From contig BPGL01000001.1 in the NCBI GenBank assembly GCA_026003015.1, forward strand, positions 673,353 to 737,352: a stretch of 64,000 nucleotides of DNA, in the 5' to 3' direction. The DNA comes from Actinomycetota bacterium (lineage in GTDB: Bacteria; Actinomycetota; UBA4738; HRBIN12). Of the stretch, positions 8,689 through 47,868 are shown one piece after another; the first letter of the stretch is position 1; each line of letters begins with the position of its first letter. Below the pieces are notes generated by a model that saw only the letters and a program-made list of their open reading frames with translations, had not been told where the DNA came from and made no database searches. The translations under genes were made by a program, and so were the position numbers.

Positions 8689-11079
8689 TCACCCGACCGG
8701 CTCGGCCGCCGTGAGCCAGGCGTAGGCCTCCTCCTCCTGGGCGAAGTGCAGCCGCAGGATCGCGTGGAGCCCGTACAGGAGGCGTCGGAGCTCGACCAGA
8801 TCCTCCGGCGCGAGCTCGCCGTCGGCGAGGTCGTCGACGAGCGTGCGGAACACCCGCGTCAGGTGGCCGATCTCGACGTGGGCTCGCGCCATGCTGCTCA
8901 TCGGGTCCTCTCCGCCGGCCAGGCGCGCGACGAGGGGGTACACCTCCGCCTCCTCCGCCTCCTCGTGCTCGGGCAGACGCTCGACGAGGAAACGGCGGAC
9001 CTCCTCGAGGGCCGCGCGGCGAGCCGCGGGCTCGAGCCCCTCGAGCCGATCGGCCGTCGCTCGGATCCGAGCGAGCTCCGGGCCGAAGGCACGGTGCTCG
9101 GCGCGGAACCGCTCGGCCACGTCGGTCCGCAGCCCCGCGGGCGCCCGCTCCACACCGCCCCGGAGGGCGCGCAGGGCGCTGAGGATCGACGCGACGTCGA
9201 TCACCTCCTGCACGACCGCCCCGGCCACCGGTCCGATCAGCCCGACCGCGCCGGCGACCATGAAGGTGAACGCCAGCCCCATGCCGAGCGCGACGCTCTC
9301 GACGGCGACCCGCCGGGAGCGCTTGGCGATCCGCAGAGCGTCGACGAGCCGATCGAGACGGTCCTCGACGAGCACGACGTCGGCCGCCTCCGAGGAGGCC
9401 GTCGCGCCCCTCGCGCCCATCGCCACCCCCGACGTCGGCGACCGCGAGCGCCGGAGCGTCGTTCACCCCGTCGCCGACCATCGCCACCGGCCGCTGCTCG
9501 GCGGCCTCGGCCTCGACCGCCTCCACCTTCTCGGCCGGCGAGCGCTCCGAGAGCACCCGGTCGACCCCGAGCGCGGCCCCCACCGCCTCCGCCACGTCGG
9601 GGTGGTCGCCCGTGAGCATCACGACCCGCCGGATCCCGAGGCGCCGCAGGGTCCGGATGACCCGCGGGGCGTCCGGTCGGATCGGATCGTCGAGCACGAG
9701 CGCCCCCCGCCACCGCCCCGTCGACGCCGACGAAGGCCGCCGACGATCCGTCGAGCATCGTGCGGCGCCGCACGTCGCGAACGCCGCGCGGCAGCGGCGC
9801 CCCGTCGGCCACGAAGGAGGCCTTGCCGACCGCCACGCGTCGACCCTCGACCGTGCCGACGATCCCCGCGCCGAAGCGCTCCCGGACCTGCTCGGGGAAC
9901 GCGAGCTCGAGACCCCGGGCGCGCGCGGCGCGCACGATCGCCTCCGCCAGGACGTGCGGCGAGGCTTGGTCGAGCGAGGCAGCCAGACGCAGGAGCTCGT
10001 CGGGATCGAGCTCGCCGAACACGACGACGTCGGTCAGCTCCGGCCGGCCGGCGGTGATCGTGCCGGTCTTGTCGAGCAGCAGGACCCGCACGCGGGCGAG
10101 GGTCTCGAGCGCTCCCCCCGCCCTTGACGATCACCCCGCGGCGGGCCGCGCGCGAGGTCCCCGCGACGATCGCGATCGGCACGGCGAGGATCATCGGGCA
10201 CGGCGTGGCCACGACGAGGACCGCGAGCGCACGGACCGGGTCGCCGGAGAACGCCCACGCGGCGCCGGCGAGCAGGAGCGTCACCGGGATGAACACGAAC
10301 GCGTAGCGGTCGGCGAGCCTGACGATCGGGGCGCGATCGCGCTCGGCCTCCTCGACGAGCCGCACGATCCCCGCGTAGGTGCTGTCGGCCGCCGTCGCGA
10401 TCGCCCGCAGGTCGAACGACGGCCCGGCGTTGACCGCGCCGGAGCGCACGCGCTCCCCCGCCCCCCGCTCCACGGGTCGCGACTCGCCGGTGAGCATCGA
10501 CTCGTCGAGGACGGCCGGGCCCTGCGCGACCCCGTCGACGGGCACGACCTCGCCGGTCCGTACGAGCAACCGGTCGCCGACGCCGACCTCGCCGATCGGA
10601 CGCTCGACGAGGCGACCGTCCTCGTAGCGCTGCACCGTCCGGGGCGCCCGTTCCAGCAGGGCCGACAACTCGCGGTGCGCGCGGCCCTCGGCGAAGGCCT
10701 CGAGCGTCTGGCCGGTCGCGAGCATCACCGCGATCACCGCGCCGGCGAGGTACTCGCCCAGGGCGAGGGCGCCGGCCATGGCGAGCAGCGCGATCAGGTC
10801 GACGCCCGGCTCGCGCCGCCACGCCTTCCGAACGATGCCGACGGCGAGCGGGACGAGGCCGACGACCGTCGTCGCGGCCCAGACGAGCTCCGCCCAGCGC
10901 GCGGCCTCCACCAGCCACAGCACGGCCCCGCCCGCGATCCCGAGGATCGCGAGGGCGAGGCGGGCGCGCTCGAGATCGAACCGCGCCGCGGGGGGGCGAC
11001 CCGTCGGCGGCGCGGCCCCTCGCTCCTGATCCACGCGCCCGACGGTAGCACCGGACCGTACCGCGCCCACCTTCCTCAC
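8689..11079 (-). CDS. P1B-5-type metal-transporting ATPase with C-terminal hemerythrin domain (three frameshifts)
   Basis: Reading through three one-base shifts gives about 795 residues. Order: transmembrane pairs, TGES actuator loop (LDESMLTGESRPV), the metal-site helix with TPCP around residues 292-295, DKTG (Asp about 336), an HVLAEA segment where HP would be, GDGVND, two final helices, and a hemerythrin-like domain from about 650 with LPEHEEAEEAEVYP and LHAILRLHFAQEEE. TPCP plus hemerythrin defines the P1B-5 subgroup linked to Ni/Fe export. GTG 11079 overlaps the csoR stop (GTGA). The shifts fall at C runs 10114-10119, 9703-9708 and 9426-9430, each cured by deleting one C, which suggests sequencing error. 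Confidence 0.85.
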
Positions 11080-11366
11080 CGCGAAAGCATCCGGCCGATC
11101 GCACCCATCAGCTCGTCGGCCTGCTCCCCAGGGTCAGAGGGTCCCCCACCTCCGCCGACGAGGCAGTGGCGGACGTGGCCGTCGACGAGACCGAGCGCCA
11201 CCTTGTCCAGGGCGGCCCGGATCGCGTTGATCTGCGTCACGACGTCGATGCAGTAGCGATCCTGCTCGACCATCGCGGCGACCCCTCGGACCTGCCCCTC
11301 GATGCGGCGGAGCCGCCCCAGGAGCTCCCGCTTCGAGGCCGTGTACCCCCGAACGCGCGTCGCCAT
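11076..11366 (-). CDS. csoR: CsoR-family copper-sensing transcriptional repressor
   Basis: A 96-residue all-helical repressor of the CsoR/RcnR family. The Cu(I) triad is present: Cys in [10 protein letters not shown], then His and Cys spaced HxxxC in [11 protein letters not shown] 11364-11366 (MATRVRGY) has a GGGAGG site just upstream; an earlier in-frame ATG would read through the operator and is not used. The stop overlaps the GTG of the P1B-5 ATPase, so the two form a coupled operon. A palindrome 36 bases upstream, shared with the divergent copper ATPase, is the likely binding site, making the system self-regulated and induced by Cu(I). Confidence 0.92.
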
Positions 11367-11401: not shown

Positions 11402-11418
11402 ATACCCCCTGGGGGTAT
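11402..11418. promoter_or_regulatory. CsoR-type operator palindrome
   Basis: ATACCCCCTGGGGGTAT is a perfect inverted repeat around a single central base. It lies between the divergent csoR and copA starts. C5/G5 tracts flanked by TA-rich ends are the established CsoR-family operator design. One site positioned here could repress both transcription units; probable -10-like sequences (TATATG leftwards, TATGGT rightwards) overlap its ends. Confidence 0.85.
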
Positions 11419-11452
11419 GGTGGAGTCACGCCGACGGGAGGGGATGCCGGAG

Positions 11453-14164
11453 ATGACGATGACCGAGCTCGCCGTGGCCCTCGCTGGCGCCACGGCGATC
11501 GGGGCGCTCGGATGGTTCTTCTTCGGCCCGCGCCGCGCGGACCGCGCAGCGCTGCGCGACGGCGTTCAGGAGATCGAGGTGATCGTGAAGGGGGGGTACG
11601 CGCCCAACCGGATCCACGTTCGCCGCGGCGTGCCCCTGCGGATCGTCTTCGATCGCCGGGAGGGGGGTGAGTGCACCTCCGAGGTGGTCTTCCCCGATTT
11701 CCGGCTGCGCCGAGCGCTCCCGGCCTTCCGGCGGACCGAGGTCCGGCTCCTCCCCGAGCGCGCCGGCACGTTCGGCTTCGCCTGTGGGATGAACATGGTC
11801 CACGGAACGCTTATCGTCGACGGTGCGGACGACGACGGGGTCGTCGGAGCGCCGGCGCTCGAGGCGCCCGCCGTCGAGACGGAGGCCCCCGCCCCCCTCG
11901 AGTCCCTCCAGGCCGCGCCCACGACCCTCGCGGACGAGGAGGCCGAGGCCCGCCGGGCGGAGATCCGCGATCTCCGGCGCCGGGTCCTCGTCGGAGCGGT
12001 GCTCACCGCGCCGGTCCTCCTCGCGGCCATGGCCGAACCGGCGGGGCTCCACCTGCCCGCCGTCCTCCTCGAGCCCTGGCTCCAGCTCGTCTTGATCACC
12101 CCCGTGATGCTCTTCACGGGCCGGCCGATCCACGCCGTGGGATGGAGCGCCCTTCGCCACCGAAGCGCGGAGATGAACGCCCTCATCGCGATCGGCACGG
12201 CGGCCGCCTTCGGCTACAGCGCCGTCGTGACGATCGCCCCGGGGCTGGTGCCGGCGGGGGCCCGCCACGTGTACTTCGAGGTCGTCGGGGTCATCCTCAC
12301 CCTGGTGCTGTTCGGCCGCCTCCTGGAGGCGCGGGCGCGTGAGGGAACAGGCCAGGCGATCCGAGCCCTCCTCGGCCTGCAACCGCGCAGCGCCCGGATC
12401 GTTCGAGGCGGCGAGGAGATCGAGGTTCCCGTCGAACAGGTCCGGGTCGGCGACGAGGTGCTCGTGCGTCCCGGCGAGCGCGTCCCGGTCGACGGTGTGA
12501 TCGTGGAGGGCCGTTCGACCCTGGACGAGTCGATGATCACCGGGGAGTCCCTCCCCGTCGACCGAGGGCCGGGGGACGTCGTGATCGGCGCCACCGTGAA
12601 CCGGACCGGGGCCTTCCGGTTGCGCGCCACCGCCGTGGGGGCCGACACCGTGCTCGCGCAGGTGATCCGCCTCGTCCGCGAGGCTCAGGCGTCGAAGGCG
12701 CCGATCCAGCGGCTCGCCGACCGCGTCGCCGGCGTGTTCGTCCCGGCGGTGATCGCGATCGCGATCGCCACCTTCGTCGTCTGGTTCGCGCTCGGCTCGG
12801 CCGACGGGCTCACCACCGGCCTGGTCAACGCCGTGTCGGTCCTGATCATCGCGTGCCCGTGCGCCCTCGGGCTCGCGACCCCGCTGTCGATCATGGTGGC
12901 GACCGGCAAGGGGGCCGAGCACGGCGTGCTGATCCGATCCGCCGAGGCCCTGGAAACCGCACGGCGCGTCGACACCGTCGTGTTCGACAAGACCGGAACC
13001 CTCACCCGCGGGGAACCCTCCCTCACCGACGTCGTGGCGCTGCCGGGTATGTCCGAGGAGACGCTGCTGCGGCTCGCGGCCTCGGCCGACCGACGCTCGG
13101 AACACCCGCTGGCCCGAGCCGTCGTCGACGGCGCGGCGCGGCACGCGATCGCGCTCGACGAGCCCCGGGACTTCGCGTCGATCACCGGCAGGGGCGTGAG
13201 GGCCACGGTCGACGGGCGGCTCGTGCTCGTCGGCACGCGATCCCTGCTCGAGGGCGAGGGGGTCGATCCCGCACCGCTCGACGGGCCGGCCGCGGCGCTC
13301 GAGGCCGCGGGACGCACGGTGGTCCGGGTCGCGGCCGACGGACGGCCGATCGGGATCCTCGCCCTCGCCGACACCGCCAAGCCGGAGGCCCCGGCGGCCG
13401 TGGCGGCGCTCCGGCGCCGGGGCGCCCAGGTCGTCCTGCTCACGGGCGACAACCGCCGCACCGCCGAGGCGATCGCCCGGCAGGTCGGGATCGGCCGAGC
13501 CCTTGCCGAGGTGCTCCCCGAGCGCAAAGCGGCGGAGGTGGCTCGGCTGCGCGGCGAGGGCCGCGTCGTCGCGATGGTCGGGGACGGCATCAACGACGCC
13601 CCGGCGCTGGCCGAGGCCGACGTCGGGGTGGCGATCGGGACGGGAACCGACGTCGCGATCGAGGCCTCGGACGTGACGCTCATCTCCGGGGATCTGCGCG
13701 GGGTCGTGACCGCGCTCGACCTCAGCCGCGCGACGATGCGCAACGTCCGCCAGAACCTCGTGTTCGCCTTCGTGTACAACGTCGTGGGGATCCCGATCGC
13801 CGCCGGCGTCCTGCAACCGTTCACGGGGTGGCGCCTGTCCCCCATGGTGGCCGCGGCGGCGATGGCGCTCAGCTCCCTGTCGGTCGTGACGAACGCGAAC
13901 CGGCTCCGGCGCTTCTCCCCCGAGCGCCTGGGCCTCGCTCCCATCGGCGCACCCCTCGACCGCGTCGAGGTCGAGGTCCACGAGCCCCACCAGGAGGTAG
14001 AGATGGTGACCGTCACCGACCCCGTGTGCGGGATGCAGGTCGATCCGTCGAGCGCGGCTGGCTCGTTCGAGTTCCAGGGCACGACCTACCACTTCTGCTC
14101 GACGTCGTGCCTGGAACGATTCCGCGCCCAGCCGCTCGCCTTCGTCGGCACCCCCGAGGCCTGA
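11453..14164 (+). CDS. copA: Copper-translocating P-type ATPase with N-terminal cupredoxin and C-terminal YHS domains
   Basis: About 903 residues from ATG 11453, which sits 9 bases after GGGAGGGG; ATG 11444 is also possible. Order: a membrane helix (7-25), a cupredoxin-like domain (about 40-125) with [10 protein letters not shown] around Cys111, transmembrane helices, TGES, the Cu(I) helix CPC (468-470), DKTGT with Asp512, SEHPLA, GDGIND, and final helices carrying the YN and MALSS motifs of copper pumps. A YHS domain follows from about 855 ([21 protein letters not shown]). The usual N-terminal HMA domain is missing and appears replaced by the cupredoxin. Cu(I) export under CsoR control is inferred. 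Confidence 0.92.
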
Positions 14165-22868: not shown

Positions 22869-24000
22869 GTGGAGCCGACCACGCCGCGTCGCACCGCACC
22901 GGGCGGGGAGGCACGGGTCGGTTCCCACCCCGGCCTTTCCTGGGAGGAGGCTCGAGCGCGCCTGGCCAGAGACGGAGCCAACCTCCTTCCGGAGCGACGC
23001 GGCCCCTCCCTCCTCCGGCGACTCCTCGCGCAGCTCATCCACTTCTTCGCCCTGATGCTCTGGGGCGCGGGCGGCCTCGCGTTCCTCGCCGGGCTCCCCC
23101 AGCTCGGGGTGGCGATCTTCGTCGTGATCGTCCTGAACGGTCTGTTCGCCTTCGCCCAGGAGCACCGGGCCGAGACGGCGGCGCGCCGGCTCCGGGCCCT
23201 GCTCCCGCGACGCGCCACCGTCGTGCGCGACGGCGCCCCGGTCGAGATCGACGCCGCCGAGCTCGTGGTCGGGGACGTGGTGCTCCTCGCTCCCGGCGAC
23301 CGGATCTCGGCCGATCTCAGGGTCCTGGTCGCCCACGGTCTGCTGATCGACACGTCGACGTTCACCGGGGAGAGCGAGCCCTCGCCCGTCGGTGCCGACG
23401 GGACCGCCTTCGCGGGGACGTTCGTCATGGCGGGGGAAGGCGTGGGCCAGGTCACCGCCACCGGCTCCCGGACCCGGCTCGCGGGGATCGCCCGCCTCGC
23501 CCAGGCCGGACGCCGGCCCCGTTCGCCCCTCACGACGGAGCTCCAACGGGTGGTGCGGACCATCTCCCTCATCGCCATCGGCGTCGGGACCGCCTCGTTC
23601 GGGGCCGCGCTCCTCGTGGGAACGCCGCCTGCGGACGGGTTCGTCTTCGGCATCGGCGTCACGGTGGCCCTCGTGCCGGAAGCCCTCCTGCCCACGGTCA
23701 CCCTCCGCGTCCGGCGCCGCCTTCGCCACGGTGGTCCTGGCACAGACCGCCAACGCCTTCGCTTGCCGGAGCGCGGCCGTGCCGCCCTGGCGCTTGGACT
23801 GGTGGTCGAACCGGCTGCTGGTCGGGGCGGTCTCGATCGAGCTGCTCGTCGCCACAGCCGCCCTCATCGCGCCGCCGCTCGCGGCAGTCCTCGGCCACGA
23901 GCCGCCCCCGGCCGTGGGCTGGGCCGTGGCCGCCGGCTCGATCGCCGCCGTCCTGGGAGCCGACGCGCTGTGGAAGGCAGCCCGCCGGGGCCATCGGTGA
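22869..24000 (+). pseudogene. Internally deleted cation-transporting P-type ATPase (no phosphorylation domain)
   Basis: The first 285 residues look like the start of a calcium/cation P-type ATPase: an LSWEEARARLARDGANLLPE N-terminal domain, membrane helices, TFTGESEP and the fourth helix with VPEALLPTVTL. Near 23700 the match jumps, in another frame, to the C-terminal membrane region (ATVVLAQTANAFACRS onward) and ends at TGA 23998-24000. The DKTGT phosphorylation site, nucleotide-binding domain and GDGxND motif are absent. It cannot be an active pump. Either a deletion of about a kilobase in the genome or an assembly collapse explains it. Confidence 0.8.
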
Positions 24001-24045
24001 GCCGGTTCCCGGCGGGACCGGCCACCTCCTCCCAGCGACCGTCCC

Positions 24046-24498
24046 CTACGACGGGCGCTTGGGCTCCGCGCGCAGGGCCCTGGCCACGGCCACGACGAGC
24101 TCGAGGACGCCGGCCATCTCGGGGCTCCGCACCAGCCGGAGCATCTCGCCGAGCCCCATCGGCCGGGTGCGGGTCCGCAAGCGCTCGTAGGCCTGGTCGA
24201 GCGTCGCCGGCACCCGCATCGCCGCGTGGAAGAGGGGCTCGTAGCGAACCTGCCCCAGGAGCCCTGCGAGCATCATGAGGTTCGCGACCATCGTCATGAG
24301 CTCCGGCCTCGTGGCCGCGCTGAAGTTCTCGTCGAAACTCTCGAGCACGCCGGTCAGGGCGCCGAGGTTGCCGCTGTCGGCCACCCGATCCACGAGATCG
24401 AGGACCTGTTCGACCGCGTCGGCCGAGCGTGCCAGGCGAGCGAGCAGTCGATCCAGGACCTCGCGGTCGGCTTCGGTGAACACGGGGGCGTCGGGCAT
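24046..24498 (-). CDS. DUF1641 family protein
   Basis: A 150-residue helical protein matching the DUF1641 pattern: repeated LARLARSADAVEQVLDLVD and LMTMVANLMMLAGLLGQV hydrophobic helices, and a PMGLGEMLRLVRSPEMAGVL segment. DUF1641 proteins often sit beside sulfide:quinone oxidoreductase-like or formate dehydrogenase genes. Here the ATG is 11 bases after the stop of such a flavoprotein, so the two are cotranscribed. It probably assists or anchors the oxidoreductase; exact role unknown. Confidence 0.8.
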   Translation of the reverse strand: MPDAPVFTEADREVLDRLLARLARSADAVEQVLDLVDRVADSGNLGALTGVLESFDENFSAATRPELMTMVANLMMLAGLLGQVRYEPLFHAAMRVPATLDQAYERLRTRTRPMGLGEMLRLVRSPEMAGVLELVVAVARALRAEPKRPS

Positions 24499-47499: not shown

Positions 47500-47868
47500 A
47501 TGCGGAGGCTCCGCGCGTTCGCACTCGTGCTCCTGCTCCCTCTCGCCGCGGCCGCCTGCTCCTCGGGCGACGGTGACGCGGGTACCGCGACCACCTCCCC
47601 GCCTGGCGAACCGGCGGCCGCCGACGTGACCCTCGCCGACTTCGCCTTCTCGCCCGACCCGATCCAGGCGACGAGCGGCCAGACGCTCGCGATCGCGAAC
47701 GAGGACCAGGCCCCGCACACGTTCACGGTGGTAGGGACCGACGTCGACGTCGAGATCGCGGCCGGCGAGCAGGTCTCGGTGACCCTCGACCTCGATCCTG
47801 GCACCTACGAGGTGATCTGTCGGTTCCACGAGGCGAGGGGCATGACGGCCACCCTCAAGGTCGGCTGA
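47500..47868 (+). CDS. Cupredoxin-like lipoprotein (plastocyanin fold)
   Basis: A 122-residue exported copper protein. The lipobox LAAAAC puts Cys near residue 19. The cupredoxin domain (about 44-122) has His in EDQAPHTFTVVGTDVDVEI and the Cys-His-Met ligand cluster in YEVICRFHEARGMTATLKV, a type 1 copper site. GGGAGG sits 5 bases upstream of ATG 47500. It is the sister of the protein at 59836, sharing the APHTFTVVGTDVD segment. Probably an electron carrier or copper store at the cell surface. Confidence 0.85.
   Translation: MRRLRAFALVLLLPLAAAACSSGDGDAGTATTSPPGEPAAADVTLADFAFSPDPIQATSGQTLAIANEDQAPHTFTVVGTDVDVEIAAGEQVSVTLDLDPGTYEVICRFHEARGMTATLKVG

Follow-up and report, generated by a model that had tools for sequence, protein, structure and literature searches.

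In Streptococcus pneumoniae, the copper ATPase CopA carries a cupredoxin-type N-terminal metal-binding domain, and the membrane-anchored CupA serves as its chaperone (PMC7558416, PMC3817396, PMC11970713). The Cu(I) ligands of CupA are C74, C111, M113, and M115 (PMC5646241). YHS/TRASH domains are known from copper ATPases of Rhizobiales (PMC5552934), and the YHS domain of the copper-activated adenylyl cyclase of M. phlei has the ligands D178, C181, C204, and C208 (PMC4626032). The locus described here lies in a 64 kb window (the whole stretch of DNA that was analyzed, 64,000 nucleotides) and brings a CupA-like cupredoxin, a P1B-1 copper ATPase, and a YHS domain together in one polypeptide. Each single part has already been described and the whole is a widely distributed variation on an established system; a literature search covering few subscription journals found no paper on the combination of an anchored cupredoxin, a pump, and a C-terminal YHS domain.

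The copA-type gene (11453..14164, plus strand, as for all features within it) is an ORF of 903 amino acids plus stop, and an in-frame ATG upstream at 11444 is a possible alternative start. The translation together with the Pfam and NCBIfam searches gave, in order, a transmembrane helix, a CupA-like cupredoxin (Cupredoxin_1, residues 19–122, E = 2.7e-14), a P1B-1 Cu(I) ATPase (E1-E2_ATPase, 309–490; HAD hydrolase, 506–723), and a YHS domain; no HMA domain was found by Pfam in the 903-aa protein. Nine membrane helices were detected by hydropathy, one ahead of the cupredoxin and eight in the pump core. The whole chain has seven cysteines, two in the cupredoxin, two in the CPC site, and three in the YHS domain. 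The first-pass annotation had proposed a copper ATPase lacking the usual N-terminal HMA domain, with a cupredoxin preceded by a membrane helix in its place and a YHS domain at the C-terminus, so that all three parts in one chain could handle metal. This description agrees with the Pfam search of the full protein, the copper ATPase model and P1B-1 motifs, the hydrophobic helix at about residues 3–24, and the cupredoxin fold recovered by Pfam, phmmer, and Foldseek; all three parts are present.

The pump core (about residues 166–820; 11948..13912) contains eight membrane helices with the A, P, and N domains, as judged by Pfam, NCBIfam, hydropathy, the structure model, and Foldseek. The protein scored 620.8 bits against NCBIfam TIGR01511 (copper-translocating P-type ATPase), for which the cut-off is 397. 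The transmembrane Cu(I) site C468-P-C470 (12854..12862) lies in the ion-binding membrane helix and is unchanged across 69 aligned relatives, and Y775N776 and M804ALSS (MxxSS, 804–808) were found in the last two helices. Residues C468, C470, Y775, N776, M804, S807, and S808 are invariant among the aligned relatives, as is the D512KTGT phosphorylation motif (12986..13000). On the basis of the CPC, YN, and MxxSS motifs and TIGR01511, the pump is classed by sequence as a P1B-1 Cu(I) ATPase (CopA). The best Foldseek match of the core was LpCopA of Legionella (PDB 4bbj; E = 1.1e-52, 50% identity), and the core, the CPC site, and the eight core helices are shared with the CopA proteins of both Legionella and A. 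fulgidus. Unlike the cupredoxin here, the metal-binding domains of these two pumps are ferredoxin-like or CXXC-type and, again unlike the present pump, neither has a YHS domain to our knowledge.

A phmmer search of the N-terminal part against the PDB, which covered the CupA-like domain (about residues 29–125; 11537..11827), returned two relatives only, both from S. pneumoniae: CupA (4F2E/2MRY; E = 1.1e-25) and the N-terminal domain of CopA (4F2F; E = 2.9e-12). When an AlphaFold2 model of residues 1–128 (pLDDT 85.5) was used for a Foldseek search of the PDB, the top two were the same proteins (4F2E, r.m.s.d. 0.8 Å, TMt 0.93; 4F2F, r.m.s.d. 1.4 Å, TMt 0.94). A viral fold search gave nothing relevant. 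CupA is thus the best PDB match by both sequence and fold, and the CopA domain is farther in sequence from the domain here. The cupredoxin fold, the N-terminal membrane helix, the Cys...CxMxM ligands, and the motif FACGMNM(M/V)HG are all shared with CupA; the ten-residue motif cited in the first-pass annotation sits at residues 109–118. In the alignment with CupA, C74 (11672..11674) is equivalent to CupA C74, a bridging Cu(I) ligand, and C111-G-M113-N-M115 (11783..11797) forms the CxMxM ligand motif. The residue numbers of C74, C111, M113, and M115 are identical to those of the CupA ligands, and a Cu(I) site is predicted here. All four are invariant across 69 aligned proteins, a conservation that is inflated and partly built in because these loci were fetched by patterns including GFACGMNM. 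A sample of 397 Actinomycetota genomes drawn with less bias contained nine fused cases (window included), each with CxMxM (eight CGMNM, one CSMNM). As judged from sequence and modeled fold, the N-terminal domain is a cupredoxin of the type found in CupA and at the N-terminus of pneumococcal CopA, with 4F2E and 4F2F closest in fold and with the same ligands. CupA is a separate small protein, whereas here the cupredoxin and a pump that also has a C-terminal YHS domain are encoded in one ORF. The feature shared with pneumococcal CopA is a cupredoxin-type N-terminal metal-binding domain that replaces HMA on a P1B-1 copper ATPase (PMC7558416, PMC11970713).

The C-terminal YHS domain (residues 854–898; 14012..14146) scored above the Pfam cut-off (PF04945, E = 2.5e-12). 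Its candidate ligands D856, C859, C882, and C886 have the spacing D-x2-C-x22-C-x3-C, identical to that of the M. phlei cyclase domain (PMC4626032). Sequence comparison of this domain with the PDB gave weak matches only, to L24e and phenol hydroxylase. By analogy with the cyclase, the YHS tail is most likely a copper-binding regulatory or sensor part. The Rhizobiales enzymes, and the YHS-bearing pumps of split gene pairs in Actinomycetota, also have YHS on a copper ATPase; in these it is N-terminal, and the cupredoxin is either encoded on its own or missing.

A divergent csoR gene (96 aa; 11076..11366, minus strand) was identified by Pfam (Trns_repr_metal, E = 3.6e-27) and by its match to the CsoR structure 4ADZ (E = 4.5e-20); when its product is aligned with solved CsoR structures, the Cys and His...Cys positions are conserved. 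In the gap between this gene and the pump gene lies the operator-like palindrome TACCCCCTGGGGGTA (11403..11417, no strand assigned), found by sequence match and the sole palindrome of CsoR type within the 64 kb window. Similar palindromes were found upstream in 11 of 78 relatives, compared with 0.004 per equal length elsewhere. With a csoR gene and a predicted palindromic G-tract operator at the promoter, the locus has the layout of a CsoR-controlled copper locus.

The gene probably encodes a Cu(I) exporter of the CopA (P1B-1) class, induced by copper, to which a CupA-type tethered cupredoxin is fused as a cytosolic Cu(I)-binding domain. Rising Cu(I) would cause CsoR to leave the operator. The first helix would keep the cupredoxin at the inner membrane face, C74 and C111 would capture cytosolic Cu(I), and the ion would shift from C74/C111 to the C74/M113/M115 site. 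From the cupredoxin, Cu(I) would next move in cis to the entry of the pump and on to the CPC site for ATP-driven export, and the YHS tail would act as a sensor that binds copper and tunes pump activity. A more far-reaching version, in which the tethered CupA domain stands in entirely for soluble CopZ and HMA proteins, hands over Cu(I) in cis, and is joined by YHS as a copper-gated brake, is tentative and somewhat doubtful. If true, a single self-loading pump chain would hold a closed relay with three stations, for capture, transport, and sensing.

In the genome that contains the window (90.5% complete), no match to an HMA domain or CopZ was found, and the only YHS domain is that of the pump protein. 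Three members of this family that lack the fusion were also without HMA, so a missing CopZ is not peculiar to fused pumps. The proposal that the missing HMA reflects a replaced CopZ is weakened by these unfused relatives and by other fusions that keep HMA. The same genome has six P-type ATPase places, with a CPC site in the pump here only. Cupredoxin_1 was detected at ten places in this genome; besides the pump's own, the window has two, near 47608 and 59911.

Alternatively, the cupredoxin and YHS would both be regulatory sensors, copper on one or both of them lifting autoinhibition; this is unlikely, and equally so the accompanying proposal that copper gets to the pump entry via small thiols or another chaperone. 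The metal-binding domain of LpCopA has been argued to be regulatory and no delivery station (PMC11970713), and a YHS domain with equal ligand spacing switches on adenylyl cyclase by copper (PMC4626032), both in line with sensing. However, in S. pneumoniae the CopA domain receives its Cu(I) from CupA-type domains (PMC7558416, PMC5646241), and it is CupA, the donor, that the fused domain resembles more closely. The long linker between cupredoxin and pump is compatible with either role; residues 127–154 are of low confidence in the structure model, from which no docked position of the cupredoxin against the pump can therefore be read. A single-chain pump of this kind is a convenient system for testing whether copper ATPases use their metal-binding domains for copper delivery or for regulation.

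The preferred reading, a Cu(I) exporter with a fused, tethered cupredoxin, places this domain on the cytosolic face, a location strongly supported by flanking charges, pump topology, and HMA-bearing relatives. The N-terminal membrane helix (residues 3–24, followed by GPRR; 11459..11524) has a hydropathy peak of 1.92 and spans residues 3–24 in the models. It is acidic on its N-side and basic on its C-side; the N-side net charge is 0 or negative in 69/69 relatives and the C-side is positive in 67/69, which argues for an N-out/C-in orientation. The A, P, and N domains of the pump must be cytosolic, and the first core helix therefore starts in the cytosol. Because no further membrane crossing was seen by hydropathy or in the model between the cupredoxin and this helix, the cupredoxin should be cytosolic too, tethered by its N-terminal helix as CupA is. 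An HMA domain was present in 12 of the 39 relatives scanned by Pfam, in one of them located between cupredoxin and pump, and a CxxC segment was found by motif scan in the cupredoxin–pump linker of 23 of 83 relatives. Since HMA exchanges Cu(I) in the cytosol, its placement in the linker of relatives puts the cupredoxin on the same side. It had been suggested in the first-pass annotation that the helix may put the cupredoxin outside the cell and so change how copper enters or leaves the pump; an external domain could receive exported copper or feed it to the pump. Although the wider cupredoxin family is mostly extracytoplasmic and an N-terminal helix can serve as a signal anchor, this is very improbable: the flanking charges predict N-out/C-in, the eight-helix core must start in the cytosol with no extra helix in between, HMA is inserted in the linker of relatives, and its closest known counterparts, CupA and the N-terminus of CopA, work on the cytosolic side. 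An extracellular cupredoxin was accordingly rejected on helix topology and the HMA-bearing relatives.

A contig scan of 84,980 species genomes yielded 233 relatives of the N-terminal domain. Among the best 80 of these 233 loci, cupredoxin and pump were in one ORF in all 80 and a C-terminal YHS domain was present in 42; the taxa included Streptomyces, Nocardia, Nonomuraea, Mycobacterium, Acidimicrobiia, Dehalococcoidia, other Chloroflexota, Dormibacterota, and one Bacillota MAG. The fused cupredoxin-pump occurred in nine of the 397 sampled Actinomycetota genomes (that of the window counted), and its occurrence is far above chance. A C-terminal YHS domain was found in 4/7 complete fused genes of this sample; with about half of the relatives lacking YHS, the domain appears dispensable to the design. 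That the fusion is an artefact of two genes joined by indel read-through or a chimeric contig is scarcely conceivable and was rejected, since despite probable G-run indels in a neighboring gene of the assembly no stop interrupts the 903 codons and the same fusion recurs at 80 independent loci, isolate genomes included. The cupredoxin tree is compatible with a single fusion origin, most of its branches being poorly supported.

By the first-pass annotation's own standard, an architecture already common and described would count against it; the genome search found the fusion common in Actinomycetota and Chloroflexota, and its cupredoxin part is also already described (PMC7558416, PMC3817396, PMC11970713). 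The CupA/CopA cupredoxin pathway is thus widespread in these two phyla, in which one polypeptide often holds both chaperone and pump, whereas reviews place CupA in few streptococci only.

Stand-alone relatives of the domain adjoin copper ATPase genes in Hymenobacter, Synechococcus, and Lactococcus plasmids. In three Actinomycetota loci (L144:2763-5360, L145, and L155), a pump with an N-terminal YHS domain is followed closely by a TM-cupredoxin gene, whose product has CQMGM in place of CGMNM; another locus (L147) has the pump and TM-cupredoxin pair, with no YHS detected. That these modules turn up joined in one arrangement and as separate genes in another favors the view that they work together. 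On a Lactococcus piscium plasmid (L112:4408-7190), one cluster comprises copY, a TM-anchored cupA, a gene for a soluble cupredoxin with CGMQM, and a copA without HMA, as if the N-terminal domain of pneumococcal CopA were a gene of its own.

Two further ATPase genes of the window are broken in frame. The neighboring P1B ATPase (8689-11079, minus strand) is Nia/P1B-5-like and has a TPCP motif and, at its C-terminus, a hemerythrin domain. Its coding sequence is spread over different frames, with three changes at about 10119, 9708, and 9430. Each change coincides with five or six consecutive G, so that the split is put down to indels in the assembly or to a pseudogene. The ORF of a P2-type (calcium-like) ATPase (22869-24278, plus strand) loses its frame past the VPEALLP helix, which suggests indels in the assembly.
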